Shown here: positions 52,261 to 59,863 of the stretch, piece by piece
Layout: each line of letters starts with the position of its first letter
How positions within the stretch are numbered: the stretch's first letter is position 1
Origin: Halichondria panicea
Lineage: Eukaryota; Porifera; Demospongiae; Suberitida; Halichondriidae
Assembly (NCBI RefSeq): GCF_963675165.1
Contig: NC_087390.1
Span: 3,300,001-3,364,000, forward strand
Direction: 5' to 3'
Length of the DNA stretch: 64,000 nucleotides
Notes under the pieces: generated by a model
The model's input: only the letters and a program-made list of their open reading frames with translations
Told to the model about the DNA's origin: nothing
Database searches by the model: none
Position numbers and translations under genes: made by a program

Positions 52261-52781
52261 CTAAAGAGGGGAGGGGTAAACTGGTAAAGGGTATGAGCCA
52301 TTTGTTATGCAAGCCTTAGTATCTAATACTAGAACCTTGAAATTACTATGACAGTTATTCAAAACAATCGCGACACATGTTTAGAATAATTATGCTTGTC
52401 ACAAATGGTGCAATCCTATTGGTCACTGAAAGAGGTTCATAAGAGATTTGTTAGACATTCAGAGGTCTTTTACGAAGGATTAAGCCCGGAAGATAGAACA
52501 GTCGAATACAACGGTGCGGTGCGCTACTGCAAAAATAGAGACTATAGGCTAGCTCCAAAACAGTAGTTAAGCAACACGTCATCTTCTATAGAGTACGTTT
52601 CACAGAATTAAAATGTGTTTATAACTGCATGGAACAAAGCATATTTTCCAGCTCTCAATGCAGTGAAGTAGAGTAAGTAATCAAACCTCGGACTATACCT
52701 ATATTCGGACGCGTTTTCCATGGACTCAAAGCAGCTATCCAGATTTTAGCCACATCTACAAGTCACTGGTGCTTGGTACTA

Positions 52782-53302
52782 CCATAGATTGAAGAGTTAG
52801 AGGGATAGGAAACGGTTTGTATCTCGAGTAACATCCGCGCTACGGTGCGGTTTAATCGAGGCCATCACAACAATATCTATTTCTACACTCAGTGCATAAT
52901 AAACTACAAGTAACTGTGCTTAGTCCGTGCAACTCACTTATATTTCAAGGTCTATACCTATTGTAGTAGTCATAACCAGCACGCTTACACGTTACATGTT
53001 CCAATAGCTCTAAAACAGCCTTGGGAACATATAACTTTATTGGAAAGTCTCTTTTTACTGGGTGTGGTCAGTCATTAGCAAGTACTACACGTGGCTCATG
53101 GACTAGGCGTGTTTTAAGTTGCTGAAAGAGATTATGTCTCGAGGAAACACAGCTTTGGGAGTTACCCGGCAAAAGTGTGCTTAATAGCCTCGTTCATAGG
53201 GCGTAGCGCGGATAATTTTCGAGGCTCCACTGCAGATTCAATGTAAAATCATCACGTGCACCACTCCGTTTCCTATCCCTCTCTCTTCAATCTATGGTAC
53301 TA
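52782..53302. mobile_element. MITE-like insertion in the left arm of the pogo element
   Basis: Present only in the left arm; the right arm reads through (CTAGGTAGTACCAAGCACC). Ends are the inverted pair ATAGATTGAAGAG / CTCTTCAATCTAT followed by a shared GGGATAGGAAACGG block. TACTACC (or a slightly longer stretch) flanks both sides, which would be the target duplication. About 520 bp, non-coding; it also holds GCGCTACG/CGTAGCGC palindromes. Confidence 0.75.
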
Positions 53303-53696
53303 CCTAGCAGCCAACTCTCAGCCTGTTCCTCACAACGACGCACTGGTCACGAGCTCTCAAAAACGAGTCCGAAATAATCAAAATACGGACGAAGGTACCG
53401 TTATCCGGACACTACTTTAGACTGCGTAGCTTGAGATATTTCTAGTTTCTGTGCCTCCTGTACTTCTTCTTAGCTAGATCTACCATCATGCAAAAAATCA
53501 GCAGTGGCAGCTGCACAACAAACTCCAGAAACCAGACTGAAAATAGCAGCCCCACCCACTAATTTAGGATCTCGGACACAGAGTTCACTTAATGGTTAAA
53601 AGAAAATCGATCTCTACCAGAGCCCAGAAAGGTAGTATACTGTATTTAATCACAACTATACACATTGAATATAGATCTACACAAGCTTACTGTTCA

Positions 53697-56600
53697 TTAT
53701 ATACATTGTACACAAGTAAACTGTTTCTTGGTTTTCTTCAGTCCTATACAGTAAAGATGATACCACCTGGAGCACACATCACAACTGATCCACACAGGGA
53801 ACTCTATCCCGCTCTTTTGTACAGAGCAATCAGTAGCAGAACAAAAAGAATCGTCCTCGAGCACTACAGGGTAAATACATGGAACTCCCTAACCACTATT
53901 TCTTTTTATTGCGTTTGTACATGACGTTAATTGAGACGAGTAACATGCATATATAGTGACATTGTCATTTAGGAACTTGACTATATATGAACCAGAAATG
54001 TACAGCACACATGGGTGGGCTCTTTACCAATTTCAATACGGTACTATTAAACCACTAACCTGACGGGTTAGCTCTAGTAGATTTAATAGCTCTCACTCCA
54101 ACATTGCTTCCTGGGCCAAAAAATACACATGTATGTGAATGCGACAACAGATGGTACCATGAACCACTAACCTGACGGGTTAGCTCTAGTAGATTTAGTA
54201 GCTCTCACTCCAACACTGTTTACGGGCTCTAAAAATAGACGTGTATGTGAATGCGACAACATAATTATGGTACCATGAACCACTAACCTGACGGGTTAGC
54301 TCTAGTAGATTTAGTAGCTCTCACTCCAACACTGTTTACGGGCTCTAAAATAGACGTGTATGTGAATGCGACAACATAATTATGGTACCATGAACCACTA
54401 ACCTGACGGGTTAGCTCTAGTAGATTTAGTAGCTCTCACTCCAACACTGTTTACGGGCTCTAAAAATAGACGTGTATGTGAATGCGACAACATAATTATG
54501 GTACCATGAACCACTAACCTGGCGGGTTAGCTCTAGTAGATTTAGTAGCTCTCACTCCAACACTGTTTACGGGCTCTAAAAATAGACGTGTACAACATAT
54601 GCCACTAACCTGACGGGTTAGCTCTAGTAGATTTAGTAGCTCTCAATCCAACACTGCTTCCTAATAATATACATGTGAATATGACGGAGTTCAGAGCTAC
54701 CTTTAAGAGTCTTAAATTGTTTCAGGGGGGTAGATTTGCTTTGGGGGTGGGTCCTAATATGAAGGGGGATAATTAAATTTACTCACTCACCAGATGGGTT
54801 AGCTCTAGTTGCCCTCACTCCAGCGTTCCTTCTTTGCTCTGCAACTAAAGGCACATCATCCGAATTGGTCGCATATAATTATAAAATAAACCTACTTACC
54901 AGACAGTACCTTGGACTTGACTGGCTCTTCATCTGTTAGAAAATGTATTAATCACGAGTATAGTCGACTGCAGTACTATAATTATGCTCAATAGAAATAG
55001 CCTCATGCATCGCCAAATTGAGCGAAAGTTATGACGTGTTAAGCGGACATGTTGCAGGCTATTCAATTCAAGTGCTATCCAAGTATATATAACATAATTA
55101 TGTAGCTGTATAATTATAGCTAAATCAATAATCAACACACCAGATACGCCACTTGAATCTATCCCCGTCACGTGGCACAACTCATCAGCATCACTCCAAT
55201 CTGCAATTATGGATATTAGCTATGTCAATATTAAATAGCAGAAGTAACCACCTTGACCAATGCTTTCTCTCACTTTGAAAGTACGCTTCGTAACTCGCTT
55301 TTGCCTGGCTAAATACAATAGAAACATGATTATACCACATTCTGCAGTATACCAAACACTATATACACACCATTCTGGGGAGATCCATTTTCTTTTAACC
55401 ATAAGTTATATCGGTCATCATGCGTGAGGTCAAAACCATTTTCAAACCTGGTGGTAAAAAGTTCAAGTTCTTTAGCAGTAAAAACCGGTTCAGGTGGGTT
55501 TTCAACACATAAGGAATGCTGAGCTTTAGACACTTTTGTGGAAACACTCTTTCCCGATTTCTTGGCTAATAGCTTCGAAGCTCGTTTTTCAGCCAGCAAA
55601 CGCTTGTTTTCAGCCTTCAATTGCTTCCTCTCAGCCTGCAAACGCTTTCTCTCAGCCTTAAGCCTTTCCTTTTCATCTTTCTCTTCTTTTTTTTTATCCA
55701 TAATAGCCATACATTCGCTGCTAGTGAGAATTTTACCACAAGATTTTACTTTCAAAGGATCAACTTTTCTTGGAGGTGGGATGGGTGTTTTCAGCATTTT
55801 TTTGGTTTGGCTGCAGTAAATTAAAGGTGTCACACGATCAGTGTCACTGGAACTGTTGTCATCCGTATCACCAGTAGACGTATAGGGTGGCATCTTGGCA
55901 TGTTCACCAAAACCAGGTTCTCGTGCTGCACTCTCATAATCAAAACTGCCACCTACAGGTGTATGTACTGCTCGTACGTCACTGAACGATTCTTCAGAGC
56001 TGATATCATCATCTTCTGAATAACGTACTAGATCTACATGTATAGCTGCAGCTTTCTTTTTCCTGGGCGCAAGACTAAACATGGGTTGATACGGCAGAGA
56101 AAAACTTTTGGCAACACCAGAAGGCATATTAATTTGCTTGAAAGCTGCTTCACGATCAAATGGGTACACACCGGTTACTTTAAATCCCGCTTGCACATTG
56201 GATAATCTCATACATCTTTCCCATGATCTTCCCAAAATTTTGGAAAAGGTAAAACAGGACACTACTTCGCCTGGATTTTTGCTCATAAATTCGTGACACT
56301 CCTGTTTCCAATAAGTCTTTAAAGGGGAAAATGTCCCCTTATCCAAAGGCTGCAATAGGTGGGTAGAGTTTGGAGGGAGAACAAATACAACTATATCATG
56401 TTCATCAGCTAGATGAACTGTTTCCGGGCAAAAGTGGCTGGAGTGGCCATCAAGAAGCAGCAATAAGGGACGTTCTTGAGGAGCATATCGAAGAAAATGA
56501 AAAGCAAACCACTGGTGAAACAAGTCACGGTCAATCCATCCTTTTGGTGACAGGCCATATTTGGTCCCAGGAACTTCTCCTTCCTTATAGCAGCTCGGAA

Positions 56601-57354
56601 CACTCTTCCGATTCAAGATCACCAAAGGTGGCATACAATAGCCTGCAGCACTCACACAGGCTACTACTGTCGTCTGGGATTTATTACCACTAGAGCGTGC
56701 TAAAGGATTTTTTTCTCCTTTTCTGTAAACGCTTTTAGAAGCCTTAGGATCCATGGGGAGGCCAGTTTCATCCATGTTAAATATGCAGCACGGCTTATCT
56801 TTCAGTTCATACCGTAACAAAGTCTCCTCAAGTAGATCAAAGTACCTGTTCATGATATCAGGATCTGTTGCATATGCTCGAGCATTTGATAGTGGAGAAG
56901 GGGCCCTTAAAGTGATGTTCGCATTTCGCTTGATAAATCTCTGCCACCAACCAGCCGTAACAGTTGAGTGAATCCCTTTATAATCAATAATCGTTTGGAC
57001 AAGAGATATAACTTCTAATCTTGTCTTAGGATATCCAATACCAGCACATTTTATCAAGAATTTGGCTAAGTCATTTTCTTCCGCAGTTGAGAGGTATTTT
57101 AGGGGGCCACTGACATCACCGTGTTGAACTCTGCCACTGATTCGATCCCCCAAAGTTGACTTGGGCACACCAAAGCAAACTGCTGCCTCTCTAACACTTG
57201 CTCCATTCTTGACAACTGCTTCCATAGCTTTTTTCATACTGTCATCCACCCATGACTTGTACAGCGGTCGTTGGTGAGTAAATCTACTGTCAAACACTGC
57301 TGGTGTTGATGGACGTGATGCAAGCTTACTTCTTAAAATATAGCCTTCAGCCAT
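53697..57354 (-). CDS. Pogo/Tigger-type DDE transposase with mini-exon repeats and C-terminal PHD finger
   Basis: Twelve exons, all phase 1: 57354-55371, 55308-55252, 55200-55141, 54932-54900, 54838-54791, 54660-54610, 54575-54519, 54459-54403, 54344-54288, 54228-54172, 54110-54060, 53863-53697; 892 codons, no stop. Order: Psq-type HTH (about 37-75), CENP-B-type HTH (about 88-148), DDE domain with D195 (FNMDETG), D302 (LLDGHSSH) and D338 (QPLDKGTF), an acidic linker, a Lys/Glu coiled coil (about 560-605), and the ELELFTTRFENGFDL tail common in Tigger proteins. Then come duplicated short exons encoding a 17-19-residue SVGVRATKSTRANPSG repeat, and finally a PHD finger with all eight ligands (FC, DC, SCDVC, WYH, YC, FTC, QC). 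PHD fingers read histone H3 tails, so chromatin-guided integration is a plausible role (inference). Confidence 0.85.
54060..54660 (-). repeat. Tandem array of six duplicated mini-exons
   Basis: Six units at a spacing of about 115 bp, each consisting of a 51- or 57-nt exon plus its intron, with identical phase 1 borders. The exon sequence GTTGGAGTGAGAGCTACTAA is almost invariant; introns vary in length (54610-54519 is the shortest spacing). A diverged founder exon lies at 54838-54791. Because every exon is a multiple of three, any number may be spliced in or skipped without changing frame. Confidence 0.85.
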
Positions 57355-57999
57355 ACCTAGTTAATTACTAACAATCTGTATACACACAAAAAATCATCAC
57401 ATAAAGACACTCTAGTTATAGTCTACTGTATGCAGATCTAGTGTGGCACTTACAAACAAATCCACCGATTCTCTGCCCCTCCTTTGATTTTGTCCTTCAG
57501 GTAGAGAGTTTTTCTTTTAGACTTTTGGCTAATAGCTCATAGACTCTCGCATAGACTAGCTCATTAACACGTGTAGATCTGCCTATATATGCATTGCACA
57601 TGCGTCCGAGATCCTAAATTAGTGGGTGGGGCTGCTATTTTCAGTCTGGTTTCTGGAGTTTGTTGTGCAGCTGCCACTGCTGATTTTTTGCATGATGGTA
57701 GATCTAGCTAAGAAGAAGTACAGGAGGCACAGAAACTAGAAATATCTCAAGCTACGCAGTCTAAAGTAGTGTCCGGATAACGGTACCTTCGTCCGTATTT
57801 TGATTATTTCGGACTCGTTTTTGAGAGCTCGTGACCAGTGCGTCGTTGTGAGGAACAGGCTGAGAGTTGGCTGCTAGGTAGTACCAAGCACCAGTGACTT
57901 GTAGATGTGGCTAAAATCTGGATAGCTGCTTTGAGTCCATGGAAAACGCGTCCGAATATAGGTATAGTCCGAGGTTTGATTACTTACTCTAGTAGCAGC

Positions 58000-58835: not shown

Positions 58836-59328
58836 TCACTACAAGTTTAGTGTACCCGTGTTGTAGTGTCTGCGGTCCCCTTAAGCTTTAAGATAAATTG
58901 TCCCTATTCAGTCACTCGGCTCTATTTATTGAAAAATAGTGCTAATATTAATCGCAACCAGTGAACATAATCTACAAACACCAAACAGTGTGAATCTTTT
59001 TCACACAATGGTCGTGTAAAAGACAACCTATACTAAGTACCATTAATATAGGGCATCGAATGCGTGGTTAATCATTTGCAAGAATGACACCTTATAATTA
59101 TTACAAGCCCTTGCTTCTCTATGAGTAAAAGTGAATGCATAACACACACTAGGAGTGTCTGTGCTACAGTTATATAAAATCATGCAATACAGGATTAAGC
59201 GACGTACACGTAAAACCAAATGCAAGTTTACTTTTTCGATAATTGTATTACTTAATAGCTATATATAGTTAGACTCGCCAGCCAGCCCTTCCTCGGGGTA
59301 AGGGACTGGTGGATTGCCTATCTGAGAG

Positions 59329-59368
59329 TAGCCTCGATTCAAGGCCGATCGGCCTGGAATCGAGGCTA
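59329..59368. mobile_element. 40-bp hairpin insertion (TAGCCTCGA family) with 9-bp duplication
   Basis: TAGCCTCGATTCAAGGCC and its reverse, almost no loop, flanked by ATCTGAGAG at 59320-59328 and 59369-59377. A 40-bp unit that still shows a clean 9-bp duplication is remarkably small. Confidence 0.8.
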
Positions 59369-59863
59369 ATCTGAGAGTTGTGTGAATCTGGTAATGACCA
59401 ATCAGAGTGCAGTATCAATGTCATGTGACATTCTTACGCCCACAGTATTGCTTAGTTAATTTCTTTGTGGTAGAATGCATGATAATAACAGGATGGGCAA
59501 GACTGTGCTAGTGCAAGATTAAGCAACCAAGCAGAGCTTATCAATCAAGCTGCAATTGAGACAAATCCTCCAGTGACTTTAGTGATTTGCACCACTTGTC
59601 TTATGTTGGAGAAAATCTTTCCAGTCTGAAAGTATGTGGGGATGGAAAGGGCTTGACAGTAGCCTTCTACCACCAGTTCTCAATGTTTCTTGGTTTCTCT
59701 GCCACAAACTAAGCAAGGGGAGCTTATTTGTAATTGTGTAGCTATTTGCAACCCACGCATATCAGACATTACAAACCACATGATGATGTCATACATGATG
59801 TCATGCAACTCATTAAAATTCCACCGTCACAACTCTCAGATAGGCAATCCACTGCAGTCCCTT

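Follow-up and report, generated by a model that had tools for sequence, protein, structure and literature searches.

The stretch of DNA analysed here, called the window, comprises 64,000 nucleotides of the Halichondria panicea genome (assembly GCF_963675165.1, contig NC_087390.1, positions 3,300,001-3,364,000; contig C14 here), and positions of the element described below are counted from its first letter. The window holds a transposon of the pogo superfamily. Its first exon encodes a transposase, and a predicted array of small exons joins this to a terminal exon encoding a PHD finger, with the whole gene lying between the terminal inverted repeats.

The element and its predicted gene

The element and its repeats are laid out as follows.

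52669..57991, minus strand: complete element, counted with the TA on either side (5,323 bp)
57601..57991, unstranded: right terminal inverted repeat, on the 5′ side of the gene (391 bp)
53295..53580, unstranded: inner part of the left terminal inverted repeat (286 bp; differs from 57601-57886 at one base, 53578/57603)
52784..53294, unstranded: nested insertion splitting the left repeat arm (511 bp)
52669..52783, unstranded: outer part of the left terminal inverted repeat (115 bp, counterpart of 57877-57991)
55371..57354, minus strand: exon 1, with ATG, psq helix-turn-helix (HTH), DDE domain and charged region, ending in phase 1 (661 codons)
57121..57246, minus strand: HTH_psq DNA-binding domain, residues 37-78 (Pfam)
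56269..56676, minus strand: DDE_1 match, residues 227-362 (Pfam; D195 before the match, D302 and D338 within it)

Both outermost ends read 5′-TA-GAGTAAGTAATCAAACC, and a TA target site is present at both ends of the window copy as well as of a second copy on contig C13. The sequence-only reading of this DNA had described the inverted repeats as intact. The two arms have 390 of 391 bases the same by direct count, but the left one is split by the 511-bp insertion and so is not intact. Repeat arms so nearly identical indicate, at the level of sequence, that the element inserted recently. The nested insertion, flanked by a 10-bp direct duplication (TGGTACTACC) and carrying imperfect inverted ends of its own of about 30 bp, looks like a short non-autonomous element; when it and its duplication are subtracted, the element measures 4,802 bp.

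Exon 1 contains an HTH_psq domain (34.1 bits against a Pfam cut-off of 20.4) and a DDE_1 domain (79.5 bits against 22). The catalytic residues D195, D302 and D338 are invariant in 7/7 aligned family members and have the spacing DD35D, so that the three catalytic aspartates claimed from sequence are all present. A DDE_1 domain with the DDD triad, a TA target site and terminal inverted repeats place the element in the pogo superfamily, as had been proposed. The accompanying Tigger label was rejected. According to PMC7386202 (articles are cited throughout from excerpts), Tigger elements are recognized by CENP-B_N together with HTH_Tnp_Tc5, or by HTH_Tnp_Tc5 alone, and Fot and Fot-like elements by HTH_psq and DD35D; the window transposase has no CENP-B_N match (Pfam, E ≤ 1), its HTH_Tnp_Tc5 match of 12.4 bits lies under the cut-off of 22.2, and HTH_psq lies above its own. 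Judged by its predicted HTH_psq domain and DD35D spacing, the element fits the published Fot-like criteria.

Wider searches with the transposase returned little. There were no matches to solved structures at E ≤ 0.01, and NCBIfam yielded three weak matches, the strongest to IS630 at 31.6 bits (cut-off 100). In a collection of genomic contigs, 27 stretches were retrieved, none confirmed. A search of viral contigs found one distant transposase locus (L040, 29% identity), which ends in a CCHC-like knuckle and whose frames showed no PHD. The L040 contig (IMGVR_UViG_3300009325_000066) carries two transposase-like frames ending in such knuckles, beside frames that look phage-like by eye, and is probably chimeric.

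Downstream of exon 1, the predicted gene model comprises ten small exons and a terminal exon:

55252..55308, minus strand: exon 2, 57 nt, phase 1-1 (prediction)
55141..55200, minus strand: exon 3, 60 nt, phase 1-1 (prediction)
54900..54932, minus strand: exon 4, 33 nt, phase 1-1 (prediction)
54791..54844, minus strand: exon 5, 54 nt, phase 1-1 (prediction); contains GVRATRANPSG, as do the repeated exons after it
54060..54660, minus strand: exons 6-11, tandem exon-intron units (prediction)
54660-54610, minus strand: exon 6 (prediction)
54575-54519, minus strand: exon 7 (prediction)
54459-54403, minus strand: exon 8 (prediction)
54344-54288, minus strand: exon 9 (prediction)
54228-54172, minus strand: exon 10 (prediction)
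54110-54060, minus strand: exon 11 (prediction)
53697..53863, minus strand: exon 12, terminal exon, C4-H-C3 PHD finger of KDM5-PHD3 type, then stop

The path from exon 1 to the terminal exon at 53863-53697, first proposed by the sequence-only reading, is reproduced as a sequence prediction. All 11 introns are GT..AG and phase 1, as had been claimed; the joined protein comes to 894 amino acids, not 892. Of the ten small internal exons, six (exons 6-11) repeat a single exon-intron unit of about 116 bp, so that the linker is largely an exon-intron minisatellite and the eleven introns do not count as eleven independent observations. With phase 1 at both edges of each linker exon, the frame is kept whatever the number of units; each contributes 17 or 19 codons, and an intact unit leaves the frame unshifted. 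There are 6 units in the window copy, 11 in the C13 copy and 32 in a copy on contig C16; of these, 6/6, 11/11 and 25/32, respectively, are intact in donor, acceptor and frame and free of stops. Unequal exchange could lengthen or shorten the linker and leave the PHD unbroken. Such a phase-1 array growing in-frame would be a simple route to the evolution of linker length. In a related family, L015, a pair of small exons is likewise repeated, unrelated in sequence to the window units and again phase 1, and the PHD exon of that family starts at the place corresponding to the start of the window PHD exon.

The frame of the PHD exon has no methionine from the upstream stop to its end, so that this exon needs splicing to be translated. 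Its Pfam PHD match scores 27.7 bits against a cut-off of 24 and spans only residues 32-62 of 63. The ligands follow the pattern C-x4-C, C-x2-C, x4-H, x2-C, C-x2-C, in which the first cysteine pair rests on alignment to five related PHDs (31-44% identical to that of the window) and to KDM5 PHD3. The complete C4-H-C3 set proposed at the C terminus is thus recovered, with the eight ligands placed by alignment.

As for the surroundings of the element, a Pfam scan of the four adjoining frames gave no match. Perfect 21-bp inverted repeats at 59309-59329 and 59832-59852, 502 bp apart and with more inverted pairs nearby, are perhaps another short non-autonomous element.

PHD fingers in related elements of the genome

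Several lines of evidence place the PHD within the element rather than in a host gene.

First, PHD fingers recur downstream of related transposases. A search of the genome (131 Mb, 39 contigs) gave at least 75 transposase matches, which we grouped into 50 clusters; copies of one family among them are not independent. When all PHD searches are considered, a PHD lies on the same strand no more than 6 kb downstream in 17/50 clusters. In the genome-wide Pfam PHD list, for which 150 of 379 candidates were scored, a downstream PHD is found in 12/50 clusters, against 0.17 expected by chance placement, and on the opposite strand in none of the 50. Among 20 DDE_1 loci outside the clusters none has a PHD in this list, the downstream DNA being read for L039 alone.

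Second, in the DNA read downstream of 21 clusters, that of the window among them, a PHD or a remnant of one was seen at 19. Eight of the 21 had been chosen without a prior PHD match; six of these carry a PHD, among them three copies of a single family. The 19 include L028, where just the second half of the domain could be found, L031, where a stop falls inside it, and the L035 group, in which the last cysteine pair reads FECC-stop and the domain may go on in an exon not placed. Reading the DNA downstream of C9:4002763 and C6:1457403 revealed other long frames and no PHD; close relatives of these two loci, L016 and L026, carry one. Relatives lacking the PHD, which the sequence-only reading had named as speaking against it if this one were also shown to belong to a host gene, amount to two of 21 loci without a PHD found, neither shown to be a loss. 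A group once taken for families without PHD (L021, L029 and L035) was dismissed as such when a looser search found the domain there, encoded by a 94-bp exon that stands twice in tandem in the C1 copy but only once in the C15 and C3 copies.

Third, the PHD lies between both terminal repeats in five families: that of the window, L015, L033/L034, L035/L036 and L037. The terminus TA-GAGTAA is common to the window element, L033, L034, L035, L036 and L037, and is not found in L015; L035, L036 and L037 span 6.5-7.4 kb, with nested insertions in them unchecked. For the window family, the terminal repeat led to two further full elements (C13:2542575-2547963 and C16:3338157-3346035), both with transposase remains and PHD inside their repeats. 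Their PHD exons are 100% and 98% identical to that of the window, an identity that alone is no sign of selection, because non-coding parts are also near-identical. The claim that the PHD belongs to the element and is not a host fusion accordingly holds for all three copies and four further families.

These observations bear on whether a host exon was caught by transposon insertion, or splice sites were assembled by chance. Small exons and short introns can indeed be fitted by eye, which would favour such an account, but the PHD lies inside the terminal repeats of five families and recurs downstream far above the chance expectation given above. We rejected this explanation and regard it as extremely improbable.

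The related loci fall into two tail types: transposase, Ulp1 protease and PHD; or transposase, small exons and PHD, as in the window element. An Ulp1-like frame followed by a PHD is found at L019, L020, L023, L025, L026, L027, L031 and L032. A tblastn search with five Ulp1 frames (E 1e-3) matched these eight loci together with L017/L004, and gave no match in L002/L009 (together spanning the window element), L013 or L014. Peptidase_C48, scanned for in six frames, exceeds the Pfam cut-off only in L031 (24.0 against 20.7 bits) and falls below it in L020 (19.5); the remaining Ulp1 frames were assigned by mutual similarity. Several of the Ulp1 families have their PHD fused within one long frame of about 270 amino acids, and the four PHDs aligned from these families have C-x-C as first pair. 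A C-x4-C PHD with no Ulp1 found characterizes the window family, L015, L016, L024 and L035/L036, although L016 is a deleted copy whose missing Ulp1 says little; L028 also lacks an Ulp1 match, and the first cysteine pair of its PHD was not found.

On a tree of transposases from families of this genome only, for which the outgroup L039 is too distant to serve as a root, the window element groups with L015 and L018 (89/93). The Ulp1 state changes twice on this tree, and a single clade without Ulp1 is not rejected (p-AU, approximately unbiased test, 0.106), L018 being scored as without Ulp1 though its tail was not found. A tree of 15 short PHD sequences had no starred branch and drew long-branch warnings. 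One locus, L017 (G000:C6:62000-68000) with L038, combines an Ulp1-like protease with a C-x4-C PHD 45% identical to that of the window, and has a repeated small frame resembling a tandem exon array of its own and an upstream (CA)n run of more than 1 kb. The 12.5 kb read there showed no transposase; L017 is perhaps a pogo relative from which the transposase has been lost, or an element of another type.

The presence of Ulp1-PHD tails in related families, together with the lack of an Ulp1 match in the window element, could mean that the window PHD is a functionless remnant left after loss of the protease. However, the zinc ligands and the first cage tryptophan (see below) are invariant in six diverged PHDs, one of which needs a gap at the last cysteine pair, and a dead exon would hardly keep them. 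We consider a remnant very unlikely. By contrast, we hold with high confidence that across the related clade the PHD works as part of the protein that the element makes.

Other features of these loci deserve mention. In L035/L036 (G000:C1:8378800-8388500 and C15:1481500-1491200) there are other small frames with GRPKK/GRPRK motifs that look like AT-hooks. At L024 (G000:C17:5540000-5549000) the open frame holding a related transposase is 2255 residues long and adjoins an extended run of N, part of which it may include; a C-x4-C PHD follows 2.2 kb downstream. Many matches in the genome PHD list lie in repeated frames, for example 12 places at 36.7 bits in frames of 213-215 amino acids, and the genome probably contains other PHD-bearing repeat families.

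Likeness to KDM5 PHD3 and a candidate role in chromatin

What might the PHD do? Searched singly against solved structures, the window PHD matches KDM5B PHD3 best (E = 4.2e-5), with KDM5A at 0.0032; a profile of six related PHDs sharpens this to 3.3e-12 for KDM5B PHD3 and 1.3e-10 for KDM5A PHD3, with the next match at 3.9e-8. The PHD3 fingers of KDM5A and KDM5B (2kgg, 2ma5) share with the window PHD the C-x4-C first pair and two cage tryptophans, although theirs belong to histone demethylases and this one to a transposon. In KDM5A PHD3, the cage for trimethylated lysine 4 of histone H3 (H3K4me3) consists of Trp18 and Trp28 (PMC9814790). Aligned to KDM5 PHD3, the window PHD has tryptophan at both positions and keeps the aspartate after the third cysteine; the first cage position is tryptophan in 6/6 aligned PHDs.

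The proposal that the PHD is a chromatin reader is strengthened by this closeness and by the two cage tryptophans. H3K4me3 reading is the best prediction for the window PHD, and we think it probable, going by cage residues and sequence likeness, that the domain reads H3K4 methylation. A KDM5-like origin is plausible, although a 50-residue domain cannot prove origin. The host has a KDM5-like gene, recognized by its PLU-1 matches and PHD exons at C13:4587773-4591620, whose second PHD scores 23.7 bits, just under the Pfam cut-off of 24. Outside the elements and the Ulp1 locus on C6, this gene gives the best match to the window PHD (3.0e-4), level with the element copy L007.

These features suggest a mechanism. 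The element would make a single protein by splicing through its phase-1 exons, consisting of the transposase, a flexible basic linker of repeated exons and the PHD. The psq domain would bind the terminal repeats and the DDD core would cut and join at TA, while the PHD, by binding di- or trimethylated H3K4 (H3K4me2/3), would hold the excised complex at active promoters or open chromatin. Such tethering could bias insertion sites or limit activity to chromatin of this kind. On balance we slightly favour the reading that this is a recently mobile psq-type pogo transposon with a spliced transposase-linker-PHD protein, tethered by its PHD to chromatin with H3K4me2/3. The further step, that the PHD biases integration, is put forward only tentatively; the domain might instead restrict activity to open chromatin, as in RAG2, or have a structural or DNA-binding role, as in piggyBac. 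Rather doubtful, at present, is a wider scheme in which histone readers steer insertion across the clade and the window branch carries a KDM5-PHD3-like reader on a linker of variable unit number, whose reach would vary in-frame.

A number of observations weigh against the tethered, spliced protein. In the scored Pfam list, 2/50 clusters have a PHD match upstream instead. The transposase frames of the C13 and C16 copies are broken, and the C16 copy is without the last bases of one end; present function therefore rests on the window copy alone. A plant ALFIN-LIKE PHD follows close behind KDM5B when the window PHD is searched singly (5.9e-5). The second cage tryptophan is kept in 5/6 aligned PHDs, L017 being without it, and the four aligned C-x-C PHDs of Ulp1 families have methionine or valine at the first cage position. 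Structure prediction of the PHD alone, made from the single sequence without an alignment, was too poor (mean pLDDT, predicted local distance difference test, 53.8) to show a two-zinc cross-brace fold and was not used. Finally, intron 6, at 34 nt, is perhaps below spliceable size, although skipping of the symmetric linker exons would keep the frame, and translation of exon 1 straight on into intron 1 yields a complete transposase of 674 residues from its ATG, lacking a PHD (676 from stop to stop).

The last two points would fit two products, of which the unspliced 674-residue transposase does the work and the spliced PHD form is a regulator or minor isoform with no part in target choice. The exon 1 frame does pass the first donor to a stop with psq and DDE complete, and so short an intron in the array suggests that inefficient splicing may occur. 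The recurrence of a PHD or its remnant at 19 of the 21 clade loci argues instead that the PHD is needed, as does its fusion within one long frame in several Ulp1 families. We judge two such products unlikely.

Alternatively, the PHD-like finger could bind DNA or stabilize the complex without reading histones. There is a precedent in the C-terminal cross-brace zinc domain of piggyBac, which binds DNA; the related PiggyMac domain binds H3 weakly and does not bind DNA (PMC8086355). The closest matches of the window finger are, however, PHDs of chromatin proteins, and both cage tryptophans and the aspartate are kept, which makes a piggyBac-like role quite unlikely in our estimation. The predicted H3K4me3 tether has the merit of placing a reader on the transposase itself with cage residues that can be named, and the element is a testable case of a transposon that may pick its landing sites by reading chromatin.

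Comparison with known systems

The element shares DDE_1, HTH_psq, DD35D and the TA target site with Fot, Fot-like and other pogo elements, and its 4.8 kb fall within the 1.2-5.2 kb given for pogo elements (PMC7386202, Gao et al. 2020). Its repeats of about 391 bp compare with published repeats of 392-856 bp, which the excerpts of that survey restrict to unclassified insect elements. The same excerpts list no animals for Fot-like elements; six bees were added later (PMC8472432). The word PHD is absent from the main texts of four pogo papers (PMC7325037 and PMC7386202, both surveys of 2020, PMC10027918 and PMC8472432), and no pogo element with a PHD appeared among the matches listed in the open-licence literature, Repbase not included, as judged by titles and abstract openings. 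Within the same genome, the Tigger/pogoR-type element L039 has a DDE_1 core with CENP-B_N (41.5 bits) and HTH_Tnp_Tc5, no psq match, and no PHD either in the 3.6 kb read or in the scored Pfam list. Tigger-type elements in which no PHD was found could thus serve as controls.

PHD tails are known from other cut-and-paste transposons. Ginger1 transposases, which are DDE enzymes, carry OTU or Ulp1 domains, the latter C-terminal, and one family, Ginger1-9_HM from Hydra, is listed with Ulp1 and PHD; Ulp1 also occurs in Mutator elements, and a figure legend aligns the Ulp1 and PHD of the two groups (PMC2836005). The related families described here likewise have Ulp1 followed by PHD. Ginger1 and Mutator, however, belong to other superfamilies with other catalytic cores, and the window element differs from them in having no Ulp1, a linker of repeated exons and a C-x4-C PHD of KDM5-PHD3 type. 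Ulp1-PHD tails are thus already known in Ginger1; what is new here is a pogo element of psq type with a PHD tail. Transposons with Ulp1-PHD or PHD tails thereby gain a pogo-type member, which raises the possibility of tail transfer between superfamilies.

CR1/L2 retrotransposons are selfish elements that, like the window element, carry a PHD of their own, the function of which is unstudied according to the excerpts of PMC4120745; they differ in being retrotransposons. In RAG and RAG-like transposons, the PHD of RAG2 binds H3K4me3 and ties a DDE recombinase to open chromatin (PMC8355894). There the PHD sits on a second protein, whereas here, in another superfamily, it is predicted on the transposase itself; if the tethering to H3K4me3 is true, the element would offer, in a single polypeptide, a natural parallel to the RAG2 PHD. 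Tethers of this kind have also been engineered: the PHD of ING2 fused to LEDGF redirects retroviral integration via H3K4me3 (PMC8149907). LEDGF-ING2 is a man-made tether for a retroviral integrase, whereas the arrangement in the sponge element is natural, with the PHD predicted on the enzyme.

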